Assembly (NCBI GenBank): GCA_030656095.1
Contig: JAUSOU010000047.1
Span: forward strand, 1 to 37,679
DNA length: 37,679 nt
Reading direction: 5' to 3'
Origin: Thermovirgaceae bacterium
GTDB taxonomy: Bacteria > Synergistota > Synergistia > Synergistales > Thermovirgaceae
Every line of letters begins with the position of its first letter. Position 1 is the first letter of the stretch. The notes under the pieces are model-generated. The model was not told where the DNA came from. It was given only the letters and a program-made list of their open reading frames with translations, and did not search any database. Positions 2,687 through 35,895 of this stretch are shown here, piece by piece. Made by a program: the position numbers and the translations under genes.

Positions 2687-4034
2687 CGTGTCCTCCTTCA
2701 TTCCCGGCGATCACACCTGCAGGGAGCTTCACCCAGAACACGCTTCCTTCACCAGGCCTGGATTCCACCCCTACCGTGCCGCCCATCAACTCAACTGCTT
2801 TTTTTACAATTGCCAGCCCGATCCCGGTGCCGGCAGAATCATCCGGGCTGTGGAGGCGTTGAAAGATATTGAAAATCCTGTCGTGGTGTTCCGTTGCAAT
2901 GCCGATGCCGTTGTCCGAAACGCGGACCACGACCCGGCTTCCTTCCATGGCGGCCCCTATCTCCACGCGATGTGAAACTCCGCCCCGGCGGTATTTCAGC
3001 GCATTCTCGATGAGGTTTGAAAGGATCTGCCGCAACAGGGTGCGGTTGCCTGTCACTACCGGCAGGTCCGGCTGCACCACAATTTCGGCGTCCCTTGCGA
3101 TCTGCCCTGATCCAGACTCGGAAAGGATCTCTGCAACCAGCGGGGAGAGCGCGATGGTCTTAAGGGGCGATACCTCTTTTCCCAGGCGCGAATATGCGAG
3201 AAGGTTGGTGATCAGTTCGTCCATGCGGCTGGACGCCTCAAGGATGTTGTCGAAGTAATGGCGGGCCTCCTCGTTGAGGCTGTCCCTGTGACGGCGGGCT
3301 ATGATCTCGGCAAAGCCGCTGATGGCCCTCAGGGGCTCCCGCAGATCGTGGGAGACCGAATAGGCAAAAGCCTCCAGCACCTCGTTGGCTCCTTCCAGTT
3401 CTGCGGTGCGCTGGCCCACGCGCTGTTCCAGCTCCGTTGTGAGATCCCTGAGGCTGCGCTCTGCAACGATGCGGGACTCCTCGTTTCCCAGAAGGACTCC
3501 CATCAGCACGGTGGCTACAGGAAAGACCATCATGACAGGCATCCAGATCCGGCTTATTACCGCAATCCCTGTTGGCCAGGGCTGCACGAGCAGTTGACAG
3601 ACAAGCATGACGATGTGAGCGCTGATGCCAAGACCGTAAAACGACAGGATACCGAGCCTCTCGGGGCGATCTCCGAAAGCACGCCGAAAAATCCGCCCTG
3701 TAATGGTGCAGCCCAGAACGGTCGCAAGTCCGGCCCACATTCCCGGACCTCCAAGGTGAACCCGGTAAAGAGCGGCCATCAGTGCTGCAATGCCGCCGGT
3801 CGACCATCCGCCGAACAGGCCCGCCATGGAAAGGACAATGGATCGGCCGTCATAGATGATCCCGGGAGCGTAATGGAACGGCATGTTCATGCCGGCCACG
3901 GCAACCCCGCCGAAGAGAAGCCCCGCAAGGATCCTTGGCCACACCTCACCGTCCCTCCGCAGCCGGGAGATCAGGCTGTAGAAGGTACAGAGTGCCACCA
4001 GCAGAGCGGCATTCTGGATCAGACTGACATACAC
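2655..4034 (-). CDS. Membrane sensor histidine kinase with 5TM LytS-like input domain
   Basis: A 459-residue kinase. Residues 1-185 hold about five to six membrane helices with the GLFGGWSTGGIAALMAALYR pattern of the 5TMR-LYT sensor family. A coiled linker (about 190-220) leads to a HisKA domain with the phospho-acceptor H229 in AYSVSHDLREPLRAI. The C-terminal HATPase_c domain (about 320-445) shows an N box (SNLIENALKY), a G1 box (VSDNGIGI), an F box (IFNIFQRL) and a G2 box (GTGIGLAIV). The GTG start at 4034 has GGAG 8 bases upstream; no in-frame ATG fits. It should phosphorylate one or both receivers encoded downstream. The ligand of 5TMR domains is generally uncertain; cell-wall or small-metabolite sensing is only a family guess. 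Confidence 0.9.
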   Translation of the reverse strand: MYVSLIQNAALLVALCTFYSLISRLRRDGEVWPRILAGLLFGGVAVAGMNMPFHYAPGIIYDGRSIVLSMAGLFGGWSTGGIAALMAALYRVHLGGPGMWAGLATVLGCTITGRIFRRAFGDRPERLGILSFYGLGISAHIVMLVCQLLVQPWPTGIAVISRIWMPVMMVFPVATVLMGVLLGNEESRIVAERSLRDLTTELEQRVGQRTAELEGANEVLEAFAYSVSHDLREPLRAISGFAEIIARRHRDSLNEEARHYFDNILEASSRMDELITNLLAYSRLGKEVSPLKTIALSPLVAEILSESGSGQIARDAEIVVQPDLPVVTGNRTLLRQILSNLIENALKYRRGGVSHRVEIGAAMEGSRVVVRVSDNGIGIATEHHDRIFNIFQRLHSPDDSAGTGIGLAIVKKAVELMGGTVGVESRPGEGSVFWVKLPAGVIAGNEGGHDEKKSRYFAR

Positions 4035-4161
4035 GATCTCATCTCCAGCTCACCTTCGGAATTTCGGGCCAGCAGTAATTTATTAAAATTGCGCACCTTT
4101 AGTATAATTGTCAATGAAATAGACTCCGCGCTAAATAGATTTTACACCATTGCAGGATCTA

Positions 4162-4190
4162 TTGACAAACTTCCCTTTAGGGGTTTAAAA
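4162..4190 (+). promoter_or_regulatory. Sigma-70 promoter of the trp operon
   Basis: A consensus TTGACA (4162-4167) is followed after exactly 17 bases by TTAAAA (4185-4190). Transcription would start near 4197, about 30 bases before the leader peptide. I see no obvious TrpR-like operator palindrome across it, so attenuation is probably the main transcriptional control. Confidence 0.7.
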
Positions 4191-4226
4191 TTCACGCCAA
4201 CAACCTGAAGACTGGAGCGGATGGTC

Positions 4227-4274
4227 ATGATTCGAGTTCCAACAACCCGGAATTGGTGGTGGCAGGCTTTCTAA
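4227..4274 (+). CDS. trpL: trp leader peptide (three tandem Trp codons)
   Basis: A 15-residue peptide, MIRVPTTRNWWWQAF, ends at a TAA at 4272. Three consecutive TGG codons occupy 4253-4261. GGAG (4214-4217) is 9 bases before this ATG; an in-frame ATG at 4221 would be too close to it and would add two residues. Ribosome stalling at the Trp codons when charged tRNA-Trp is scarce would mask the first hairpin arm and let the antiterminator form. Length, position and codon content match the trpL peptides of enteric bacteria, although the amino acid sequence is otherwise different. Confidence 0.85.
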   Translation: MIRVPTTRNWWWQAF

Positions 4275-4335
4275 GTCTGCCGCCAGGAGCCTGATCGATC
4301 GCAAAACCATAGATTGCGAGAGGCCTTGGAGGCGG
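4258..4335 (+). promoter_or_regulatory. trp attenuator: leader 1:2 hairpin and 2:3 antiterminator
   Basis: Segment 1, GGTGGCAG (4258-4265), overlaps the Trp codons and pairs with segment 2, CTGCCGCC (4277-4284). Segment 2 can alternatively pair with segment 3: CCGCC (4280-4284) with GGCGG (4331-4335), and GCCT (4289-4292) with AGGC (4321-4324). Segment 3 is also the 5' arm of the first terminator, giving the mutually exclusive folds needed for attenuation. The pairings were found by eye and no folding energies were computed. Confidence 0.7.
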
Positions 4336-4375
4336 ATCCCGTGTGGGATTCTCTTCAAGGCCTCTTTTGTTTTTT
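4320..4375 (+). terminator. trp attenuator terminator 1
   Basis: GAGGCCTTG (4320-4328) pairs with CAAGGCCTC (4356-4364). An inner GGATCCC/GGGATTC pairing makes a long stem, followed by the U-rich tract TTTTGTTTTTT (4365-4375). Confidence 0.8.
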
Positions 4376-4380
4376 CTCCG

Positions 4381-4413
4381 GGGAGAGGCCCGAAAAGGCC
4401 TCTCCCTATTTTT
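4381..4413 (+). terminator. trp attenuator terminator 2 (tandem)
   Basis: GGGAGAGGCC (4381-4390) pairs perfectly with GGCCTCTCCC (4397-4406) around a 6-base loop, followed by TATTTTTTT. It reuses the AGAGGCC/GGCCTCT module of terminator 1. The 3' arm of terminator 1 can therefore also pair with the 5' arm of terminator 2. Confidence 0.85.
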
Positions 4414-4458
4414 TTATCTCCTGCCCACAGAGGTGGGGAGAGGTTAAGGAGGCAGCAC

Positions 4459-6000
4459 ATGACGAGCAGAGTGGAGACAAGAGCGCAGCGGAGGGTAACG
4501 AGCCTGGAGACTTTCAGGGACATGGCGCGGGATCATGATCTGGTCCCACTGGTTATAAGAATGAACCCGCAAGAGCTGACACCGCTTTCGCTTTACCGGA
4601 AGCTCGGCAAAGAAAAGCACAACTCTTTTCTCCTGGAAAGCGGTGACCGGGGAAGTGCGGGAGGACGCTATTCCTTCATCGGGATCGAGCCGGAGAGAGT
4701 GTTCCGGGTGACGCCCGATGGATGTGAGGTCTGTGACGGGGATGGCAACCATCTCGAATTCCATCCTTCCGGACAGGGAACGAGAAAGGCTCTGGACTCC
4801 TATCTGGCCTGCCGACGGCCTCTGCGGGGAGATGATCTTCCTCCCTTCGCCGGAGGAGTGGCAGGTTACTTCGGCTACGGCATGGTGGAGGGTTGGGAGG
4901 ATCTGTTTCACGGCTGCACCAGGAAGTTGCGCCCCTCATCGCTTCCCAGGGCCCTGCTCATGGGCTTTGCTACAGTGGCTGCCTTCGACCACAAGACCGG
5001 ACAGCTCCTGCTGATACACAATATCCGCACGCCCGAAGGGGCTTTGGGTGAGGCGCTGGACACCCTCTACAGGGAAGGGTGCGGAAGGCTGGAGAGCCTT
5101 GCGGACCGGGTCGACGAACCGTTCACGGAGAACCCTCCGTCGGGCCCCTTCTCTTTGAGTGATATCCACGCCCACACTCCAAAAGAGGATTTTCTGGAGA
5201 TGGTGCGAAAAGGGCGGGAGCACATCATTTCCGGCGATATCTGCCAGGTGGTGCTTTCGCAACGGTTTTCCATCGAGACGGACCTCCCGTCGCTGGAGAT
5301 CTACCAAGCTTTGAAGGATGAAAACCCCTCGCCGTACCTGTTTTTCCTGAATCTTCCCGAGCTGGAACTCATCGGCTCCTCGCCGGAGGTCCTGGTGCGG
5401 GTCGAGAGGGATAGGGTCTTCTCACGTCCACTGGCGGGGACACGTCGACGCGGCGCCTCCGAGGCCGAGGATCGAGCCCTGGCCAAAGAGCTTCTGGCCG
5501 ACGAGAAGGAGCGGGCCGAGCATCTCATGCTGGTGGACCTCGCCCGCAACGACCTGGGGCGGGTCTGCAAGACCGGAACAATTGCCGTTACCGAGCTGAT
5601 GGGGCTTGAACGCTACTCCCAGGTGATGCACATCGTCTCCCAGGTGGAGGGCGACAAGCGCGGGGATCTGAGCGCCCTTGATGTCCTGGAATCGGCCTTT
5701 CCCGCGGGAACCGTGTCGGGAGCACCCAAGATACGCGCCATGGAGATCATCGAAGAACTCGAGCACGAACCGCGCGGCCCCTACGCGGGAGCCGTGGGTT
5801 ACGTCGGCTTCGATGGAGACATGGATACGTGCATCGTCATCCGGACGATGGTCCGTGAGGGGAACACCGTCAGCATCCAGGCAGGCGCTGGAGTGGTCTA
5901 TGATTCGGTCCCGGAAAAGGAGTACGAGGAGACGCGCAGTAAGGCCAGAGCTCTTTTTCGCGCCCTGGAGACAGCTCTTGAGAGGGAGAATGTCCGATGA
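4459..6000 (+). CDS. trpE: Anthranilate synthase component I
   Basis: 513 residues; converts chorismate to anthranilate using ammonia from TrpG, the first step of Trp synthesis. The N-terminal half carries the LLES motif (residues 58-61), which in this family forms the Trp feedback site. The C-terminal chorismate-binding half shows PAGTVSGAPKIRAMEII (about 415-431) and GPYAGAVGYVGFDGDMDTCI. The ATG at 4459 follows AAGGAGG (4446-4452) by 6 bases. It is the first structural gene after the attenuator and overlaps trpG by 4 bases. Length and motifs are normal for TrpE rather than PabB, and the neighbours confirm the role. Confidence 0.97.
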   Translation: MTSRVETRAQRRVTSLETFRDMARDHDLVPLVIRMNPQELTPLSLYRKLGKEKHNSFLLESGDRGSAGGRYSFIGIEPERVFRVTPDGCEVCDGDGNHLEFHPSGQGTRKALDSYLACRRPLRGDDLPPFAGGVAGYFGYGMVEGWEDLFHGCTRKLRPSSLPRALLMGFATVAAFDHKTGQLLLIHNIRTPEGALGEALDTLYREGCGRLESLADRVDEPFTENPPSGPFSLSDIHAHTPKEDFLEMVRKGREHIISGDICQVVLSQRFSIETDLPSLEIYQALKDENPSPYLFFLNLPELELIGSSPEVLVRVERDRVFSRPLAGTRRRGASEAEDRALAKELLADEKERAEHLMLVDLARNDLGRVCKTGTIAVTELMGLERYSQVMHIVSQVEGDKRGDLSALDVLESAFPAGTVSGAPKIRAMEIIEELEHEPRGPYAGAVGYVGFDGDMDTCIVIRTMVREGNTVSIQAGAGVVYDSVPEKEYEETRSKARALFRALETALERENVR

Positions 6001-6563
6001 TCCTGGTTATCGACAACTACGATTCCTTCACCTGGAACCTGGTTCAGTACCTTTCGGAGCTCGACGAGGTGGTGACGGTCCGCAACGACCGGATCACACT
6101 GCAGGAGATCGAGACCATGGATCCCGGCCATATCGTCATCTCGCCGGGGCCGGGAGCCCCATCCGAGTCGGGCATCTCAAAGGACGTGATCCGGACCTTT
6201 AAGGGATGCATCCCCATCCTTGGAGTCTGTCTGGGGCACCAGGCGATCGGCGAGGTCTTCGGGGCAGAAGTGGTTCGGGCCGCGGAACCTTTCCATGGAA
6301 AAGTTTCCGTCATCCATCACGAGGGCAGGGGTCTTATGAAGGGGCTGCCCGAGCCATTCCGCGGCACTCGATACCACTCGCTTGTAGTGAAATCGCCCCT
6401 CCCGGAGGAGCTGAAAGTGACGGCCCACACTGAGGACGGGACTGTCATGGCCATGGAACACCGTGAATACCCTCTTTTCGGGGTCCAGTTCCATCCCGAG
6501 TCCATCCTGACCGAGTCGGGCATGGATCTTCTGAAGAACTTTCACCGGCAAAGAATCGTCTGA
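5997..6563 (+). CDS. trpG: Anthranilate synthase component II (glutamine amidotransferase)
   Basis: 188 residues, a class I glutamine amidotransferase. The nucleophile C78 lies in GVCLGHQ, with the H166/E168 partners in FHPES. It supplies ammonia to TrpE. It starts inside the trpE stop (ATGA overlap) and is not fused to TrpD, unlike in enteric bacteria. Proteins of this type can also serve PabB, but the location in the trp operon argues for TrpG as the main role. Confidence 0.95.
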   Translation: MILVIDNYDSFTWNLVQYLSELDEVVTVRNDRITLQEIETMDPGHIVISPGPGAPSESGISKDVIRTFKGCIPILGVCLGHQAIGEVFGAEVVRAAEPFHGKVSVIHHEGRGLMKGLPEPFRGTRYHSLVVKSPLPEELKVTAHTEDGTVMAMEHREYPLFGVQFHPESILTESGMDLLKNFHRQRIV

Positions 6564-6587
6564 GAGAAAAGTTTGATAGGAGCTGAG

Positions 6588-7622
6588 ATGAGGATGTTGA
6601 GAGAGTATCTGGAAAAGATTTTGACGCGCAACGACCTGACTGCCGAAGAGATGGCCCGGGCCATGGAGGCCATCATGGAAGGGCGGGCTTCAGAAGCCCA
6701 GGTGGCCGCCTTTCTGGCCGCACTTCGCGTAAAGGGCGAGACGGTAGTGGAGATTGCTTCGGCGGCCCGTGTAATGCGGGAGAAGGCCTTGCCCGTAAAG
6801 GTGGACCGCCGCCCTCTGCTGGACGTGGTGGGGACCGGCGGAGACGGAACGGGCACTTTCAACATATCCACGGCGACAGCCCTGGTTGCCGCCGCCGCTG
6901 GTGTGGCGGTGGCCAAGCACGGCAACCGTTCCGTGTCCAGCAAGTGCGGCAGCGCCGACGTGATGGAACCGCTGGGGATCCCCCTCCTTGCGGACCCTGG
7001 AGACGTGGCCGATTGCGTGGAGAGAACGGGTTTCGGCTTCATCTTCGCCCCTCACTTCCACCGTGCCATGAAGAACGTGGCCCCGGTCCGGAAGGCCCTG
7101 GGGCTGCGAACTATCTTCAATGTTCTGGGACCCCTCACGAACCCCGCCCAACCCGACTGCCTGCTCATGGGCGTTTTCACGCCGGAGCTGGTCCGGCCCA
7201 TGGCGAAGGTTCTGGGACGACTCGGCCTGGAGCGGGCCATGGTGGTCCACGGTCACGGAGGGATGGACGAGCTTTCCCTGAGCGGATCCAACATGGCGTG
7301 CCTCCTGAAGGGCGGCGTGCTGGAAGACCTGGAGATCACTCCTGAAGACGCCGGGCTTTCCCGTGCAAAAGCCGGCTACGCTGCGGGAGGAACGGCCAAG
7401 GACAACTGCAGGATCATCAAGGACATCTTCGCAGGCAAGAGGGGAACTCACCGTGACGTGGTGGTCTTCAACGCCGCCGCCGCCCTGCTGACGGTCGGAA
7501 GGGCGGGCTCACTGCGGGAGGGGGCGCGGATGGCCGAGGAGGTTATAGACAGCGGCCTGGCCGCCGCAAAACTGCGGGAGGTGGCCGCCTTCGCCGGCTC
7601 CCGACAGGAGGGGGCGGCATGA
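6588..7622 (+). CDS. trpD: Anthranilate phosphoribosyltransferase
   Basis: 344 residues from the ATG at 6588, which follows AGGAG (6578-6582) by 5 bases. An in-frame TTG at 6573 would place the ribosome site inside the gene. The enzyme transfers phosphoribose from PRPP to anthranilate. The PRPP-binding glycine loop GTGGDGTGTFNIST spans about 82-95, and the KHGNRSVSSKCGSADV segment about 110-125. The stop overlaps the trpC start (ATGA). Confidence 0.96.
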   Translation: MRMLREYLEKILTRNDLTAEEMARAMEAIMEGRASEAQVAAFLAALRVKGETVVEIASAARVMREKALPVKVDRRPLLDVVGTGGDGTGTFNISTATALVAAAAGVAVAKHGNRSVSSKCGSADVMEPLGIPLLADPGDVADCVERTGFGFIFAPHFHRAMKNVAPVRKALGLRTIFNVLGPLTNPAQPDCLLMGVFTPELVRPMAKVLGRLGLERAMVVHGHGGMDELSLSGSNMACLLKGGVLEDLEITPEDAGLSRAKAGYAAGGTAKDNCRIIKDIFAGKRGTHRDVVVFNAAAALLTVGRAGSLREGARMAEEVIDSGLAAAKLREVAAFAGSRQEGAA

Positions 7623-8371
7623 TCCTGGACCGCATCGTGGCGGAAAAGGAGCGCGAGGTGGCCAGGCTTCGGGCGCCGCGGGCCTCCCTCTTCAAAGCTC
7701 TGGGAGAATGCGGAATTTCGGTCATCGCCGAGATCAAGAAGGCCTCGCCCAGCAAGGGAGTCATCGTCGGAGATTTTGATCACCTGCGGCAGATGGAATC
7801 TTACGTGCGGGGAGGGGCGGCCGCCGTTTCGGTGCTGACGGACCCGGTCTTTTTCAAGGGCAGCGGCGCCATCCTCAGGGACCTCAGCGGGAGAGCGGGG
7901 CTGCCGCTGCTGCGTAAGGATTTTCTCATCGACCCTCTCCAGGTGGAAGAGAGCTACTTCCTCGGGGCCGACGCGGTTCTCCTCATCGCGGCCATCCTGG
8001 AGGGTCCCAAATTGAAGGAGATGCTGGAACGGGTCCATTCCCTGAGGATGGAGGCGCTGGTTGAGGTCCACGATGAGGTCGAGCTCTACCGGGCCCTGGA
8101 AACGTCGGCCCGGGTCATCGGCATCAATAACCGGAGCCTCAAGGATTTTACGGTGGACCTGAAGACCTCGGAGCGGCTTATCGCCGAGATGGAGCGCCTT
8201 GGGGCCCGCTCCGGAAACCAGGTGGTGGCCGAAAGCGGCATCACATCCCGGGCCGATGTGGTGCGGCTGGAGGAGGCGGGGGCGGACGCCATTCTGGTGG
8301 GCGAGAGCCTCATGCGCTCCTCCGACCCTGCGGGGCTGATCGCGGAACTGAAGGGGGGCAAGAAGGCATGA
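7619..8371 (+). CDS. trpC: Indole-3-glycerol phosphate synthase
   Basis: 250 residues, a TIM barrel that closes the indole ring of CdRP. Signature elements are AEIKKASPSKG (37-47), LLRKDFLID with the catalytic K100, and VVAESGI near the C-terminus. It is a separate protein from TrpF. It overlaps trpD and trpF by 4 bases on each side. Confidence 0.96.
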   Translation: MILDRIVAEKEREVARLRAPRASLFKALGECGISVIAEIKKASPSKGVIVGDFDHLRQMESYVRGGAAAVSVLTDPVFFKGSGAILRDLSGRAGLPLLRKDFLIDPLQVEESYFLGADAVLLIAAILEGPKLKEMLERVHSLRMEALVEVHDEVELYRALETSARVIGINNRSLKDFTVDLKTSERLIAEMERLGARSGNQVVAESGITSRADVVRLEEAGADAILVGESLMRSSDPAGLIAELKGGKKA

Positions 8372-9000
8372 CACGGATCAAGGTCTGCGGCTTGACCTGC
8401 AGAGAGGACGTGGAGGCCGCTGTCGCGCTCGGGGTGGACGCACTGGGTTTTATCCTGACGGAAAGCGCCCGCCGTGTGACGCTGGAAAAGGTGGCTGCAA
8501 TCACGCGAGGGCTTTCCCTTTTCATTTCGACGGTGGCCGTGGTGGCGAACCCTAAAACAGGCGAACTGGCAAAAATCGCCGCAAGCGGGCTTTTCACTCA
8601 CATCCAGTTTCACGGACAGGAAGTCCCGGAAATGCTGGCCGGGGTCCAGATGAGGACCATCAAGGCCTTCGGCATTGCTTCGGCAGAGGACCTGGAGCAA
8701 GTCAAACTCTATGGGGCGGCCGACTATTTTCTCTTTGACAGCCGAGTGGGGGGTAGCTGCGGAGGGACAGGGAAAACCTTCGACTGGTCGCTGCTGAAGG
8801 ATATCGCTGTGGAAAAACCCGTTATCCTCGCGGGGGGCCTTGGGCCGGAAAACGTGGCTGAAGCCATCCGGGCTTGCCGGCCAGCTGCGGTGGACCTGAA
8901 CAGCCGACTGGAGTCGGAGCCCGGAAAAAAGGACCCGGAACGGATTCGACAGACCGTGATCGAAATCCGCGAAGCTGATAGTAATATTCTAAAGGAGTGA
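8368..9000 (+). CDS. trpF: Phosphoribosylanthranilate isomerase
   Basis: 210 residues. A small TIM barrel with the general base C7 in KVCGLT and the general acid Asp in the LFDSRVGGSCGGTG segment (about 126). It performs the Amadori rearrangement of PRA to CdRP. The start overlaps the trpC stop. An AAGGAG near its end (about 8992-8997) serves as the ribosome site of trpB. Confidence 0.95.
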   Translation: MTRIKVCGLTCREDVEAAVALGVDALGFILTESARRVTLEKVAAITRGLSLFISTVAVVANPKTGELAKIAASGLFTHIQFHGQEVPEMLAGVQMRTIKAFGIASAEDLEQVKLYGAADYFLFDSRVGGSCGGTGKTFDWSLLKDIAVEKPVILAGGLGPENVAEAIRACRPAAVDLNSRLESEPGKKDPERIRQTVIEIREADSNILKE

Positions 9001-9006
9001 GGCGAA

Positions 9007-10194
9007 ATGAGTAAAAAAGGCTATTATGCCGGTTTTGGAGGTCGATTCGTTCCCGAAACGCTGTTTCCGGCATTGGAAGAACTCGAGACAGCGTATGAAA
9101 AACTTCGGTGTGACTCGAGTTTCCAGGAAGAACTTAAGGGGCTGCTGACAAAGTACAGCGGGCGCCCCACGCCCCTCTACTTTGCCGGGAGACTTACCGG
9201 GCACCTGGGCGGCGCGAAGATCTACCTGAAGCGGGAGGATCTGAACCACACCGGCGCCCACAAGATCAACAATGCCCTGGGGCAGGCCCTCATCGCCATT
9301 AGACTGGGCAAGAAGCGCATCATCGCCGAGACCGGCGCGGGGCAGCACGGAGTGGCCTGCGCCACGGCAGCGGCCCGCTTCGGCCTGGAGTGCCGCGTCT
9401 TTATGGGCGAGGAGGATATGCGGCGCCAGGCCCTGAACGTGGACCGGATGCTGCTTCTGGGCGCCGAGGTCGTCCCGGTATCCTCGGGCAGCAGAACCCT
9501 GAAGGACGCCACCAACGAGGCCATCCGTCACTGGGTTGCCCACGTGGAGGACACCCACTACATCATCGGCTCCGTCGTGGGGCCCCATCCCTATCCGGCC
9601 ATCGTGAGGGACTTCCAGCGTGTCATCGGCGACGAGACTCGGGAGCAGATAATCGAGGCCGAAGGACGGCTTCCAGACCTTCTCATGGCCTGTGTGGGCG
9701 GCGGGAGCAACGCCATTGGGCTCTTTCACCCCTTCGTGGATGACGCCGCGGTTCGCATGATGGGCGTCGAGGCCGCCGGCAAGGGGATCGATACAGGGCA
9801 ACATGCCGCAACCCTTTCGGCCGGGCGGGTGGGAGTACTTCACGGAAGCCGATCCTACCTGCTCCAGGATGACGATGGCCAGATCATTGAAGCCTATTCC
9901 ATCTCGGCCGGACTCGACTATCCCGGGGTGGGGCCCGAGCACAGCGCCCTGATGGAATCGGGACGGGTAGAGTACACCTCTGTCACCGACAGAGAAGCCG
10001 TGGCGGCCTTCTCCCTCCTCTCCAGGCTTGAGGGGATCATTCCGGCGCTGGAGAGTTCTCACGCCGTAGCACAGGTGATCAAGACGGCGCCGACTCTCCC
10101 GCGGGGTACGCTGGTGGTGGTTAACCTCTCGGGGCGTGGCGACAAGGATATAAACTCGGTGCGGCCCTGGCTGCTGGAAGGAGTTGAGGCGTGA
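9007..10194 (+). CDS. trpB: Tryptophan synthase beta chain
   Basis: 395 residues, PLP-dependent. It condenses indole with serine. The PLP lysine is K86 in HTGAHKINN, and the phosphate-binding GGGSNAIG loop is at about 234-241. The sequence is of the TrpB1 class, with the usual length and a start [17 protein letters not shown], which normally works in an alpha2beta2 complex with TrpA. The adjacent, overlapping trpA fits that. Confidence 0.97.
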
Positions 10195-32765: not shown

Positions 32766-33203
32766 TTGCATCCCTTCCCCAAAGGCCGGGCGCGTTTGCA
32801 TGATATCGGAAAGATGGGCGTACCAGACCACATTCTTTTCAAGCCGGGTAAATTGACCGACGAAGAGTGGTGTATCATGCGCGAACATCCCACTTATGCC
32901 TTTGAGTTGATCTCACCGATAGCATATTTGCGCCCCGCTCTGGACATTCCATACTGCCACCATGAAAAATGGGACGGAAGCGGTTACCCGCGCGGGCTGA
33001 AAGGCGAGCAGATCCCTCTTGCTGCGCGTCTCTTCGCAATAGTAGATGTTTGGGACGCCCTTCTCTCTGATCGTCCGTATCGTCAAGGCTGGCCAGAGGA
33101 GAAAGTCCTTGAACACATCCGGGCTCTGGCCGGAACGCATTTTAAACCAGAGGATGTGGACATGTTCCTGCGGATGGTAAGCGAGGAAACTGAAGAACAA
33201 TAA
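32766..33203 (+). pseudogene. 5'-truncated HD-GYP domain gene
   Basis: The frame encodes most of an HD-GYP domain: LHDIGKMGVPDHIL, IMREHPTYAFELI, the double His in CHHEKWDGSGYP, and AIVDVWDALLSDRPYR. It begins at a TTG just after an in-frame stop (32760-32762). It therefore lacks the first helix with its usual HxxRV histidine and any sensor domain. There is no ATG before the HD motif and no ribosome site. The remaining metal ligands are intact, so the decay looks like a 5' deletion or replacement. A short product starting at the internal ATG of MGVPD is possible but unlikely to be active. It is followed directly by the terminator in repeat copy A. Confidence 0.7.
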
Positions 33204-33205
33204 AA

Positions 33206-33268
33206 CGCAGGTTCGAGCCTGCCCAAATAAAAAGACGGCCTTCTCAGGCCGTCTGATGTTTTTTTGGC
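33206..33268. repeat. Direct repeat copy A (T-arm-like hairpin plus bidirectional terminator)
   Basis: These 63 bases are identical to 35279-35341. They contain GCAGG-TTCGAG-CCTGC, like a tRNA T-arm but with a 6-base loop, then AGACGGCC (33233-33240) and GGCCGTCT (33247-33254), flanked by A- and T-runs that let it terminate in either direction. The similarity to copy B extends to GGCGTCG at 33272. Confidence 0.9.
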
Positions 33269-33409
33269 GTCGCTGTTCAAATGATCACGTGAGCCGGATG
33301 CGGGGCTGGCCAATTTGACTTGATCTTCTCAACAGCAGGCAACATCCCGTTAAGGGGAAAAGGTAGTTTCCATTACACCATCGGCATTGCACGCAAGAAC
33401 AAAGTGTTG

Positions 33410-34303
33410 CTACAGGGCTTCATTGGCAATACTTCTGGCCATCTCCCTTACAGTCGCGAAGGAACGATCCAGGTCGAACTCCTCAAAATCCCTCTCCCGG
33501 AGCACCGATTTGAGTTGAGACTCTACCTGCCTGCGAAGCGTGTCCAGCCGGGCAGATGAAACGTCCGCAGGCTCGTTGCCGGGAATCGCCATCTTCTCAC
33601 GGACCAATCCAACCAGGCCAGGCTTCCTGGCATTGATGCCGAGCCTTCTTTCGGCGTAATCAATGTCAAAGAAATCCCGAATGGCCGGATCACGCCGCGA
33701 AAGCGCCGCACGAAACTTTTCGGCAAAGCTCTCAAGAAGCGAAAGACAGGTGATCGTCACCGGGGCAACAGAGGGTTTCGCTGTGATCGGATTGAGCAGG
33801 ATCGTTAGTGCCGGAGCGACTGCCACCGGAGTCAGCAGTGGTTCGCTCAACGACACTTCCAGCTTGATCGTTTCCAGTTCTCCGGTGTTCAGGGAAGTGT
33901 ATCCGATCTCGGCCAGATATTGCGTCGAGGCATTGGCTCCTCTCAGCGGCTGATCGACACGAAAGACGGGTAAGAGACCTGGCAGTTCCTGGATTCCCTT
34001 CTTGAGATTCACAACGCGTGAACTCCTTTCTTTGCGCGAGGCATCGCAGGAAGAAGAAATGACGAAATCCAGGTCTTCGCTCATCCGGTAGAAATCAGCA
34101 TGCACCTTGGCCAGGCAGGTTCCGCCCTTGAAAACAATCTCTGTGTTAAGCGTAGCGAGATAGGAAAGCAAGACCGTGCAGAAATAATCCTTCTCGATCA
34201 GGCGTGCAGCGAAACCTGTTTCGGCCACGGTATATGCCAAAGCCGCGCGAAACAATTCCGGATCGTCATGATGGCGAACAGGAGCCGGATCAGGCTCGTT
34301 CAT
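33410..34303 (-). CDS. abiEii: AbiEii-type nucleotidyltransferase toxin
   Basis: 297 residues of the AbiEii/AbiGii (DUF1814) nucleotidyltransferase family. Motif I is KGGT at 59-62, followed by SEDLDF at 75-80 with D77/D79 as probable metal ligands. IEKDYF (36-41), EKFRAAL and RDFFDID are the later family motifs. AbiEii toxins are bacteriostatic and, with AbiEi, give abortive phage resistance; relatives have been shown to modify tRNA 3' ends. The ATG at 34303 is preferred over a GTG at 34315; it overlaps the antitoxin gene by 14 bases, so translation is coupled. Substrate here is unknown. Confidence 0.85.
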   Translation of the reverse strand: MNEPDPAPVRHHDDPELFRAALAYTVAETGFAARLIEKDYFCTVLLSYLATLNTEIVFKGGTCLAKVHADFYRMSEDLDFVISSSCDASRKERSSRVVNLKKGIQELPGLLPVFRVDQPLRGANASTQYLAEIGYTSLNTGELETIKLEVSLSEPLLTPVAVAPALTILLNPITAKPSVAPVTITCLSLLESFAEKFRAALSRRDPAIRDFFDIDYAERRLGINARKPGLVGLVREKMAIPGNEPADVSSARLDTLRRQVESQLKSVLRERDFEEFDLDRSFATVREMARSIANEAL

Positions 34304-35090
34304 TGTCAACCACACCCCATCTCTGGCTGGTCCTTCCTGTCTTTGGGCTGGTTGGTATCCACGGGATAGGACCAGTTGTGGGCTTCAGTTTCTGTTCCAG
34401 CTTCCGAAGCAATTTCTCTTCCACGCCTTCGCGTTCGAGCAAAAAACCCATTCTCCGGATCGTCCCAATGTCTCCGAATCTTACTGTGCTTTCCACGAGT
34501 TGCTCTGCCTCGACGCGGCCGTCAGCAAGCTCCTTGCGTATCCATTCGTATCCTCGCGGCAGGCTGTTGAATCTTGACCAGTCATAGACGGCGTCTACAA
34601 GCGAGCGGACTCGTGATGCGTAGACAAGAACCAAACCACCCTTTGTTGCAGATTCCTCCGTGTCGCCCAGCCTTTGTTCGGCCACCTTGATCAGGGTCAA
34701 CGCCACCTTTCCGATCATGCGGTCTCCTGAAAGGCGGGTGTTGTAAGCATAGGTTCGCGCCGGAATTTGCTCGTCAAACCGATAACGATTGAATGCATTG
34801 GGGCCGCACACCTGGTATCTTGCCCCCTGTTCCTCCATGAGCGCAGTCAAAGCAAGGGCTTCGCCCGGATCCCATACGCCTCCCAATGGCAGTCGCGGCG
34901 GCAACAGGTATAGCCCTCGCTGGACACGGGCAATAGTTCCGGCCTTTGCGAGCCGGCTGAGGAGATGTTGTTCCTGACTCCTGGTCAGCCCAAGTGGCTC
35001 CGCAAGATCTCCAAACCTTACGGTTTTCATGCCGCGCATCTGCGCGTAAGCTAACAATTGTGATTCGATCTGTCCCAAGCGCGTCTTCAT
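34290..35090 (-). CDS. abiEi: AbiEi-type antitoxin with winged helix-turn-helix
   Basis: 266 residues. An N-terminal winged HTH (about 15-62: VRFGDLAEPLGLTRSQEQHL through a RVQRGLYLLP wing) is followed by the AbiEi C-terminal domain. In studied systems this antitoxin neutralises AbiEii without a tight protein complex (type IV) and represses its own promoter by binding inverted repeats. It is the first gene of the pair. There is no ribosome site before the ATG at 35090, and the predicted -10 box ends 7 bases upstream, which suggests a leaderless mRNA. The tail after about residue 245 overlaps the toxin start. Confidence 0.83.
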   Translation of the reverse strand: MKTRLGQIESQLLAYAQMRGMKTVRFGDLAEPLGLTRSQEQHLLSRLAKAGTIARVQRGLYLLPPRLPLGGVWDPGEALALTALMEEQGARYQVCGPNAFNRYRFDEQIPARTYAYNTRLSGDRMIGKVALTLIKVAEQRLGDTEESATKGGLVLVYASRVRSLVDAVYDWSRFNSLPRGYEWIRKELADGRVEAEQLVESTVRFGDIGTIRRMGFLLEREGVEEKLLRKLEQKLKPTTGPIPWIPTSPKTGRTSQRWGVVDNERA

Positions 35091-35096
35091 ACTCGT

Positions 35097-35133
35097 ATTC
35101 TATTCTTGAATAATCGCCTGTCAAGCGATTATA
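35097..35133 (-). promoter_or_regulatory. abiE promoter(s) with inverted-repeat operator
   Basis: On the minus strand TTGACA (35119-35124) and TAGAAT (35097-35102) are 16 bases apart. An upstream TGCTATAAT (TATAAT at 35128-35133) is an extended -10 for a second start. Perfect 8-base arms ATAATCGC (35110-35117) and GCGATTAT (35125-35132) enclose the -35 box. A protein bound there would block both promoters; AbiEi itself is the likely ligand. Confidence 0.65.
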
Positions 35134-35151
35134 GCAAAATACAATACGAGA

Positions 35152-35207
35152 CCTGCCCAAATAAAAAAGACGGCCTTCTCAGGCCGTCTGATGTTTTTTT
35201 GGCGTCG
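35152..35207. repeat. Direct repeat copy B (partial, terminator part)
   Basis: It shares CCTGCCCAAATAAAAA, the AGACGGCC/GGCCGTCT hairpin (35168-35175 and 35182-35189), the T-run and GGCGTCG with copy A, with one extra A. The T-arm-like part is missing except for CCTGCCC. A different T-arm-like hairpin, GCGGA-TTCGAG-TCCGC on the minus strand, follows at about 35210-35226. Confidence 0.85.
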
Positions 35208-35278
35208 GGTGCGGACTCGAATCCGCCGGCTGGCGGATTAACAGCCGGTGGGCGGGCAGGAAGGAAGGAGATTTTTAT

Positions 35279-35341
35279 CGCAGGTTCGAGCCTGCCCAAA
35301 TAAAAAGACGGCCTTCTCAGGCCGTCTGATGTTTTTTTGGC
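35279..35341. repeat. Direct repeat copy C, serving as tRNA operon terminator
   Basis: Identical to copy A over 63 bases. Its AGACGGCC/GGCCGTCT stem (35306-35313 and 35320-35327) lies just after the 3' end of tRNA-Asn. On the minus strand it is followed by a T-rich tract, so it terminates the tRNA operon. Its other flank faces the AbiE segment. Confidence 0.9.
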
Positions 35342-35413
35342 TCCTCGGGCAGGACTCGAACCTACGACCTAGTGGTTAACAGCCACCCGCTCTGCCAACT
35401 GAGCTACCGAGGA
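35341..35413 (-). tRNA. tRNA-Asn(GTT)
   Basis: Full cloverleaf: acceptor TCCTCGG/CCGAGGA, anticodon loop with GTT, T-loop TTCGAGT. CCA is not encoded (the next bases are GCC), unlike its neighbours. It is the last gene of the tRNA operon. Confidence 0.95.
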
Positions 35414-35440
35414 ATATTTATTCTCTCTTGGGACCTGAAG

Positions 35441-35514
35441 TGGAGGCGGCACCCGGATTCGAACCGGGGATAAAGGATTTGCAGTCCTCTGCCTTACCAC
35501 TTGGCTATGCCGCC
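35441..35514 (-). tRNA. tRNA-Cys(GCA)
   Basis: Acceptor GGCGGCA/TGCCGCC with encoded CCA, anticodon GCA in GGACTGCAAATCC, and a canonical T-loop TTCGAAT. Confidence 0.95.
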
Positions 35515-35525
35515 CTCAATGAAAA

Positions 35526-35600
35526 TGGAGCGGAAGACGGGATTTGAACCCGCGACCCCAACCTTGGCAAGGTTGTGCTCTACCACTGAGCTACTTCCGC
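35526..35600 (-). tRNA. tRNA-Gly(GCC)
   Basis: Acceptor GCGGAAG/CTTCCGC with encoded CCA, anticodon GCC in CCTTGCCAAGG, T-loop TTCAAAT. Confidence 0.95.
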
Positions 35601-35619
35601 TTCTCATCCCGATTAGAAG

Positions 35620-35695
<76 letters not shown>

Positions 35696-35711
35696 TTACT
35701 TTTCAAGGAAA

Positions 35712-35788
<77 letters not shown>

Positions 35789-35820
35789 ATTACCTCTATT
35801 GGAGCCACTGAAAAGAATCC

Positions 35821-35895
35821 TGGTGGGCGAAACAGGGTTCGAACCTGTGACCCCCTGCGTGTAAGGCAGGTGCTCTTCCGCTGAGCTATACGCCC
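35821..35895 (-). tRNA. tRNA-Val(TAC)
   Basis: First gene of the tRNA operon. Anticodon TAC in CCTTACACG, encoded CCA. The acceptor GGGCGTA faces TTCGCCC, leaving a T-T mismatch at pair 6-67, which is unusual; all other arms pair normally. Confidence 0.92.

Follow-up and report, generated by a model that had tools for sequence, protein, structure and literature searches.

The AbiE toxin–antitoxin (TA) pair of a Thermovirgaceae bacterium lies between near-identical copies of the intrinsic terminator that closes a tRNA operon. We analysed the 37,679-nt stretch of DNA that carries it (the window; contig JAUSOU010000047.1 of assembly GCA_030656095.1). On balance the pair is probably an acquired TA cassette that came without a recombinase of its own and lodged in the terminator at the operon end, through one crossover with a circle that joined a gene end to the cassette. 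Comparable layouts recur at AbiE loci of unrelated phyla, most of them at the ends of protein-coding genes.

Anatomy of the AbiE locus

Read on the minus strand, the locus runs from tRNA-Asn through repeat copy C, a 75-nt stretch holding a displaced 3' half of tRNA-Asn, copy B, abiEi, abiEii and copy A to an HD-domain fragment on the opposite strand (Table 1). In this AbiE type IV TA pair the toxin is assigned by a PF08843 match of 96.5 bits (cut-off 22.5), and abiEi by an above-cut-off PF13338 match together with its position adjoining the toxin gene, which it overlaps at 34290–34315. AbiE systems are further marked by neutralisation of the toxin through AbiEi, by abortive infection of phage and by AbiEi autorepression at inverted repeats. 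The inverted repeat at the promoter is likely the AbiEi operator, judging from its sequence and place; in a by-eye comparison, homology to a 73%-identical relative (G009) visibly starts at this operator/promoter. The HD-domain fragment has a 65% relative in the same genus that is a 312-codon open frame, and the Val-Asp-Phe-Gly-Cys-Asn operon is kept in relatives.

Table 1. Features of the AbiE locus in the window, followed by other AbiE loci with repeats (positions of the latter are those of each locus)
Feature	Position	Strand	Description
HD-domain gene fragment	32766..33203	+	N-terminally truncated; Pfam HD_5 positions 48-168 of 170; stop 2 nt before copy A
Repeat copy A	33206..33268	.	Bidirectional intrinsic terminator with T-arm-like stem (CGCAGGTTCGAGCCTGC); equals copy C; from repeat search, folding and terminator match
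Segment of A common to B	33218..33272	.	CCTGCCC..GGCGTCG, 55 nt; copies compared in register; read here as the duplication that AbiE entry would have created
abiEii, nucleotidyltransferase-type toxin	33410..34315	-	301 aa from GTG, ATG 4 codons in; Pfam AbiEii PF08843 E 3e-27; PADLOC AbiEii
abiEi, winged-helix antitoxin/regulator	34290..35090	-	266 aa; Pfam AbiEi_4 PF13338 E 1.1e-10; PADLOC AbiEi
AbiE promoter	35097..35130	-	TTGACA-16-TAGAAT; overlaps inverted repeat AATCGCCTGTCAAGCGATT
Repeat copy B	35141-35203 (repeat search); 35152..35207 (as terminator)	.	Directly upstream of abiEi; borders the AbiE insert on the side opposite to A
Displaced degenerate tRNA-Asn 3' half	35200..35248	-	Anticodon stem-loop CTGTTAA to 3' end; palindrome AATCCGCCAGCCGGCGGATT; aligned to tRNA-Asn
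Repeat copy C	35279..35341	.	Terminator of the tRNA operon; begins at the tRNA-Asn 3' end
tRNA-Asn(GTT), intact	35338..35413	-	ARAGORN; last in the Val-Asp-Phe-Gly-Cys-Asn operon (35338-35895)
L114			400 nt, 100%; FtsX-like 3' end
L079			261 nt, 92%; hrpA 3' end
L076			226 nt, 95%; 5' end of a LysE-type gene
L091	1-4675		Ldh_2 3' end present three times; between the copies, two different cassettes of TA type, one AbiE, the other an MqsA-like/DUF4258 pair
L122			70-nt repeat, 84% identity
L123, Neomarinimicrobiota	3005-9262		Terminator-repeat array whose successive gaps hold Fic-like, AbiE and VapC-like genes
L086	2434-10304		Array of five ~200-nt repeats that contain conserved palindromes; in between lie small genes, AbiE and a RhuM-like gene
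L101	7869-9716		Below threshold; hsdS and hsdR flank AbiE, and a diverged 31-nt copy of the start of hsdR lies on the side away from hsdR

A repeat search of the window bore out the first-pass annotation in finding A and C identical (63 of 63 positions) and B just upstream of abiEi. Compared in register, A and B agree in 55 of 56 nt, B having one extra A. Copy B carries the right part of the A/C repeat, has the terminator core in common with A and C, and lacks the outer CGCAGGTTCGAG that is present in A and C. On the minus strand, A and B have CGACGCCA, the terminator and GGGCAGG in common; a T-arm-like stem (CTCGAACCTGCG) is further common to A and C and missing from B, and GTCG (minus strand CGAC) is common to A and B and missing from C. 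A, B and C each match a bidirectional intrinsic terminator, and copy A folds much more strongly than its shuffles on both strands (z about −4.6). The first bases of copy C are the last four (GCCA) of tRNA-Asn, and its start there, with its terminator match, agrees with the earlier assignment of C as the terminator of the tRNA operon. Also as first described, no recombinase or transposase ORF lies between A and C. The accompanying statement that A and C bracket only abiEi and abiEii holds in part: the pair is inside, and so are B and the tRNA-Asn fragment.

The search for more copies that had been proposed found the repeat in exactly three places of the 1.92-Mb genome, all at the AbiE locus. 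A scan of 60 relatives gave no match above chance, and scans of viral contigs and other members of the order gave none. A widely used general terminator with no link to insertions, named in advance as the outcome that would speak against an insertion spot, is excluded for the A/B/C repeat by the scans of the genome and the 60 relatives; a dispersed genome-wide terminator or REP was likewise rejected, there being only three copies, all at one locus.

On the plus strand, behind the terminator, 33206–33224 and 35279–35297 hold an inverted sequence that resembles the tRNA-Asn T-arm (CGCAGGTTCGAG-CCTGCCC); in G017, a genome of the same order, the terminator is also followed by a tRNA-Asn remnant in inverted orientation. 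A palindrome, AATCCGCCAGCYGGCGGATTCGAG, sits inside the displaced tRNA-Asn pieces of the window (35200–35248) and of G017 (L143:764–798 and 1300–1334, one of them a variant); its core is found elsewhere too in G002 (L144:1316 and 7062, listed with the palindrome sites), and it is possibly a REP-like palindromic element.

A proposed two-event history of the repeats

The simplest order of events has two steps. An older insertion or duplication at tRNA-Asn would have produced the displaced 3' half and a second terminator (C as against the ancestor of A and B). AbiE, with its own operator, its promoter and both genes, would then have entered the distal terminator, where 55 nt were duplicated to give A and B; with the terminator duplicated over 55 nt, neither the tRNA nor its terminator would have been broken. 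The GTCG flank that A and B have and C lacks would follow from one event that both inserted AbiE and made the A/B duplication. In this order, which we read from the sequences of the copies, the identity of A and C would be a relic of the first event and A/B the scar of AbiE. The earlier reading of A and C as the bracket is modified accordingly: the closest bracket of AbiE is A/B, and the A/C identity is real and may date from the older event. Recombination between repeats that were already there, as had also been suggested, is not supported, the repeats having more probably been created by the insertion.

AbiE as a mobile pair

Within the phylum, AbiEi is confined to 2 of 188 genomes. The other copy, the 73% relative in G009, belongs to the same family and has a different neighbourhood, with neither tRNA nor repeats beside AbiE, and relatives of 60–68% identity are scattered through many other phyla. 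The AbiE pair of the window is thus a recent arrival, a horizontally acquired cassette, and it moves on its own, because its 73% relative sits elsewhere without tRNA or repeats. The nearest AbiE-free genomes (G003 and G006, of other species than that of the window) have unrelated terminators at the site. A link to tRNA genes as a rule for AbiE was rejected, most AbiE relatives having no tRNA nearby.

We also weighed an assembly artefact, in which a misjoin at the 63-nt repeat would have put a foreign AbiE fragment here. The window is a contig of a metagenome-assembled genome (MAG), and the contigs of G002 and G007 end inside tRNA-Asn, so the site is hard to assemble. Against a misjoin stand the G+C of AbiE (0.545–0.556), which is similar to that of its surroundings, the 73% relative in the same family and the same layout on the contigs of other genomes; we regard this explanation as very improbable.

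Gene-end brackets at other AbiE loci

Brackets were counted as direct repeats scoring at least 25 between the two flanks, at 56 testable loci of the AbiE subfamily, the window included, and at control intervals from the same loci, drawn irrespective of recent acquisition. Such repeats span the AbiE pair at 8 of the 56 loci, compared with 4 of 972 control intervals (Fisher 2e-8), so that bracketing is about 35 times commoner at AbiE; with two repeat-array loci left out, the counts are 6/54 and 1/951 (Fisher 1e-7). A detectable bracket is absent at 48 of the 56. The repeats of L106 and L213 are transposase or insertion sequence (IS) genes and were not counted as gene-end scars, and matches at L134 and L135 were dropped as flank artefacts at contig starts.

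The bracketed loci belong to unrelated phyla, and four of the brackets (L114, L079, L076 and L091) are the ends of intact neighbouring genes (Table 1). The layout of L091 suggests repeated entry at one gene end. The copies of L123 are arranged as in the window, the outer two being identical over 57 nt and the middle one a mosaic with only the terminator in common. At L101, whose hsd names were read from ORF sequences, AbiE apparently lies inside a type I restriction–modification operon. The first-pass annotation had spoken of entry at tRNA-linked terminator repeats. What stands of this is that integrase-less TA cassettes recur within terminator or gene-end repeats; the tRNA is not specific to them, most AbiE cases being at protein-gene ends. 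'tRNA-linked' is therefore too narrow, and terminators and gene ends generally serve.

Divergence between gene-end copies

Useless remnants that decay in place collect changes without regard to codon position. In L091, 21 of the 24 differences between copies fall at codon position 3, with 2 nonsynonymous codons against 16.9 expected (none of 5000 simulations was as low), and in L079 third positions hold 13 of 20 differences, with 9 nonsynonymous against 14.1 expected (P=0.009). The copies of L076 differ too little for a codon-position bias to be read. The silent-site bias in L091 and L079 means that one copy came as a functional allele from another genome, a conclusion drawn for at least these two loci from their substitution patterns; an imported allele is what would be expected if the donor DNA brought the gene end along with the cassette.

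An empty site for a second TA pair

The comparison of related genomes for presence or absence of the cassette, proposed at the outset, gave a positive case for HicAB, another TA pair of the same order. In the sister species G029 (L201) and G052 (L204), HicAB lies between two 88–89% copies of an approximately 140-nt terminator, a repeat that also contains the 3' end of the downstream gene, which is convergent. G021 (L232), of the same genus, lacks HicAB and has one terminator between the flanking genes. Among 24 HicA loci of the order that served as a comparison set, 5 have repeats; that of L213 is an IS, and those of two others are weak. Bracketing is therefore not specific to AbiE.

That this empty site has one terminator and not two bears on the possibility that the repeats came first. 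The terminator would then have been duplicated by slippage or with the tRNA, AbiE would have come later by any means, and the bracketing would be incidental or kept by gene conversion. Duplications of tRNA-Asn without cassettes are indeed frequent in the order (G021, G048 and G026), and multi-copy arrays surround AbiE in L086 and L123. The excess of brackets at AbiE over control intervals and the GTCG flank confined to A and B argue, together with the empty site, against such a history, which we consider improbable. A second tRNA-Asn 12–14 kb away in G021, G029, G052 and G048 was rejected as an island border: the 82-nt gene alone is duplicated, with ordinary genes between (G021 and G048 inspected).

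The tRNA-Asn end in the order and the case for an integrase

Several other genomes of the order carry extra genes at the tRNA-Asn end. In G017 (L143, G017:C1:8800-16000, 833–1416), tRNA-Asn and its terminator are followed by one small GIY-YIG gene and then by a second tRNA-Asn 3' half with terminator, the two tRNA-end and terminator copies being 84.6% identical over 123 bp. A 424-bp segment, beginning in the anticodon region of tRNA-Cys and containing tRNA-Asn, occurs twice in G056 (L191, G056:C1:2099500-2106000); between its copies lie IS genes and a PDC-M25A/B pair, which is a two-gene PADLOC candidate defence pair. In G003, a sizeable group of methylase, helicase, SIR2 and HerA genes begins just downstream of tRNA-Asn, and in G026 a GIY-YIG gene adjoins this tRNA. 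With the contig breaks inside tRNA-Asn in G002 and G007, these cases support the tRNA-Asn end as a spot for cassettes and defence genes in the order. As side observations, the stop codon of the G017 GIY-YIG gene lies inside the anticodon-loop sequence of the displaced tRNA-Asn 3' half, and G017 has a further degenerate tRNA-Asn between Cys and Asn.

The main rival to a single crossover is the scar of an integrase. In this reading a tyrosine integrase that has since been lost, or that acts in trans, would have worked at the tRNA-Asn end, A, B and C would be copies of its attachment site, and AbiE would be a non-autonomous remnant of the CIME or satellite kind. Displaced tRNA 3' halves start in the anticodon stem-loop in the older event of the window, in G017 (Asn) and in G056 (Cys), and the anticodon stem-loop is a known integrase subsite (PMC4383910), which makes an integrase a fair rival for the tRNA cases. 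Tyrosine integrases cut in such stem-loops, and the starts of the displaced copies in G017 and G056 favour an integrase for those two. The genome itself has tyrosine recombinases beside tRNA-Arg(CCG) (G000:C142, L149) and tmRNA (G000:C83, L150), and on an Elusimicrobiota contig (L066) the AbiE pair has an Xer-type tyrosine recombinase gene on either side. Other features fit an integrase less well. Between A and C there is no integrase or other element gene; the A/B duplication begins within the final 8 nt of the tRNA-like end rather than at a site in the anticodon or T-loop; across loci the repeats range from 55 to 424+ nt, at different genes and at 5' as well as 3' ends, which misfits one fixed att core; and the repeat occurs nowhere else in the genome, a search near its integrases having found no attachment-site copies. 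We take an integrase origin to be possible and rather doubtful.

Known systems provide partial parallels. Like Islander tRNA islands (PMC4383910), the window has an intact tRNA, an insert and a displaced tRNA 3' piece in the same orientation, the fragment at 35200–35248 of the minus strand aligning with the 3' half of tRNA-Asn, and its older event has the anticodon-side break. Unlike them, the insert is a single TA pair with no integrase ORF between A and C (the integrases of the genome are on other contigs), the youngest duplication covers the terminator and not the tRNA, and the same layout occurs elsewhere at protein-gene ends. As in CIMEs, the cassette has neither integrase nor transfer genes and is flanked by direct repeats at a tRNA end; in the window, however, no ICE/IME remnants or att core were recognised, the repeat scans having turned up no reference element with such a core, and the repeats are terminators or gene ends of variable length. 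Integrons resemble these loci in that TA cassettes gather between structured repeats, L123 and L086 being array-like. They differ in that the window repeat is an intrinsic terminator. No attC core motifs were recognised in it; the L086 alignment, too, has no clear attC core, and no integron integrase was recognised among the four Phage_integrase (PF00589) matches of the genome (an 89% complete MAG). Nor does the locus have the marks of a transposon or IS: there is no transposase ORF between A and C, and no inverted-repeat pair flanks AbiE except the self-complementary terminators.

A proposed route by a circle and a single crossover

For the second event at the window, and for the gene-end loci, we favour a route by homologous recombination. 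After trimming and circularisation, a donor piece holding a gene end or terminator together with the cassette would integrate through one RecA-type crossover within the common gene end. A single crossover of this kind would automatically leave a partial copy of the gene end on the far side, and terminators and gene ends would be favoured because the host gene survives only there. We infer the steps of uptake, trimming, circularisation and crossover; together they would explain the variable repeat length, the use of 5' and 3' ends, the many genes involved, the missing recombinase and the divergence of imported alleles.

The route has an experimental counterpart in E. coli, where a conjugating plasmid with one gene end was cut and the rare recombinants that inactivated the gene were studied (Amarir-Bouhram et al., PMC3240628). 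Most of these were interpreted as trimmed molecules that had recircularised and then integrated by a single crossover, and the ones that were sequenced had partial gene-end duplications of 109–950 bp (PMC3240628), compared with 55–424+ in the natural loci. Both settings show a direct partial duplication of a gene end, foreign DNA between the copies and no recombinase; they differ in that the E. coli system was a laboratory one with a selectable plasmid, while the natural loci are read back from their sequences.

Significance

These loci bear on how small defence genes without a recombinase spread; defence hotspots without an identifiable mode of mobilisation have been noted in E. coli and Pseudomonas (PMC10121019). 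A literature search, drawn largely from sources other than subscription journals, did not find AbiE or other TA pairs without an integrase described between gene-end copies. We tentatively propose that terminators and 3' (sometimes 5') gene ends may be general docking points for small TA and defence cassettes that lack a recombinase, each entry using a circle and one crossover, and that repeated rounds may build integron-like arrays (as in the window, L091 and L123) without integron machinery. The scar, with partial copies of a gene end or terminator on both sides and silent-site-biased divergence between them, would allow such entries to be recognised and dated in any genome and the RecA-crossover route to be tested directly. 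The recurrence of the layout in unrelated bacteria points to a general way for small cassettes to enter genomes without breaking genes.
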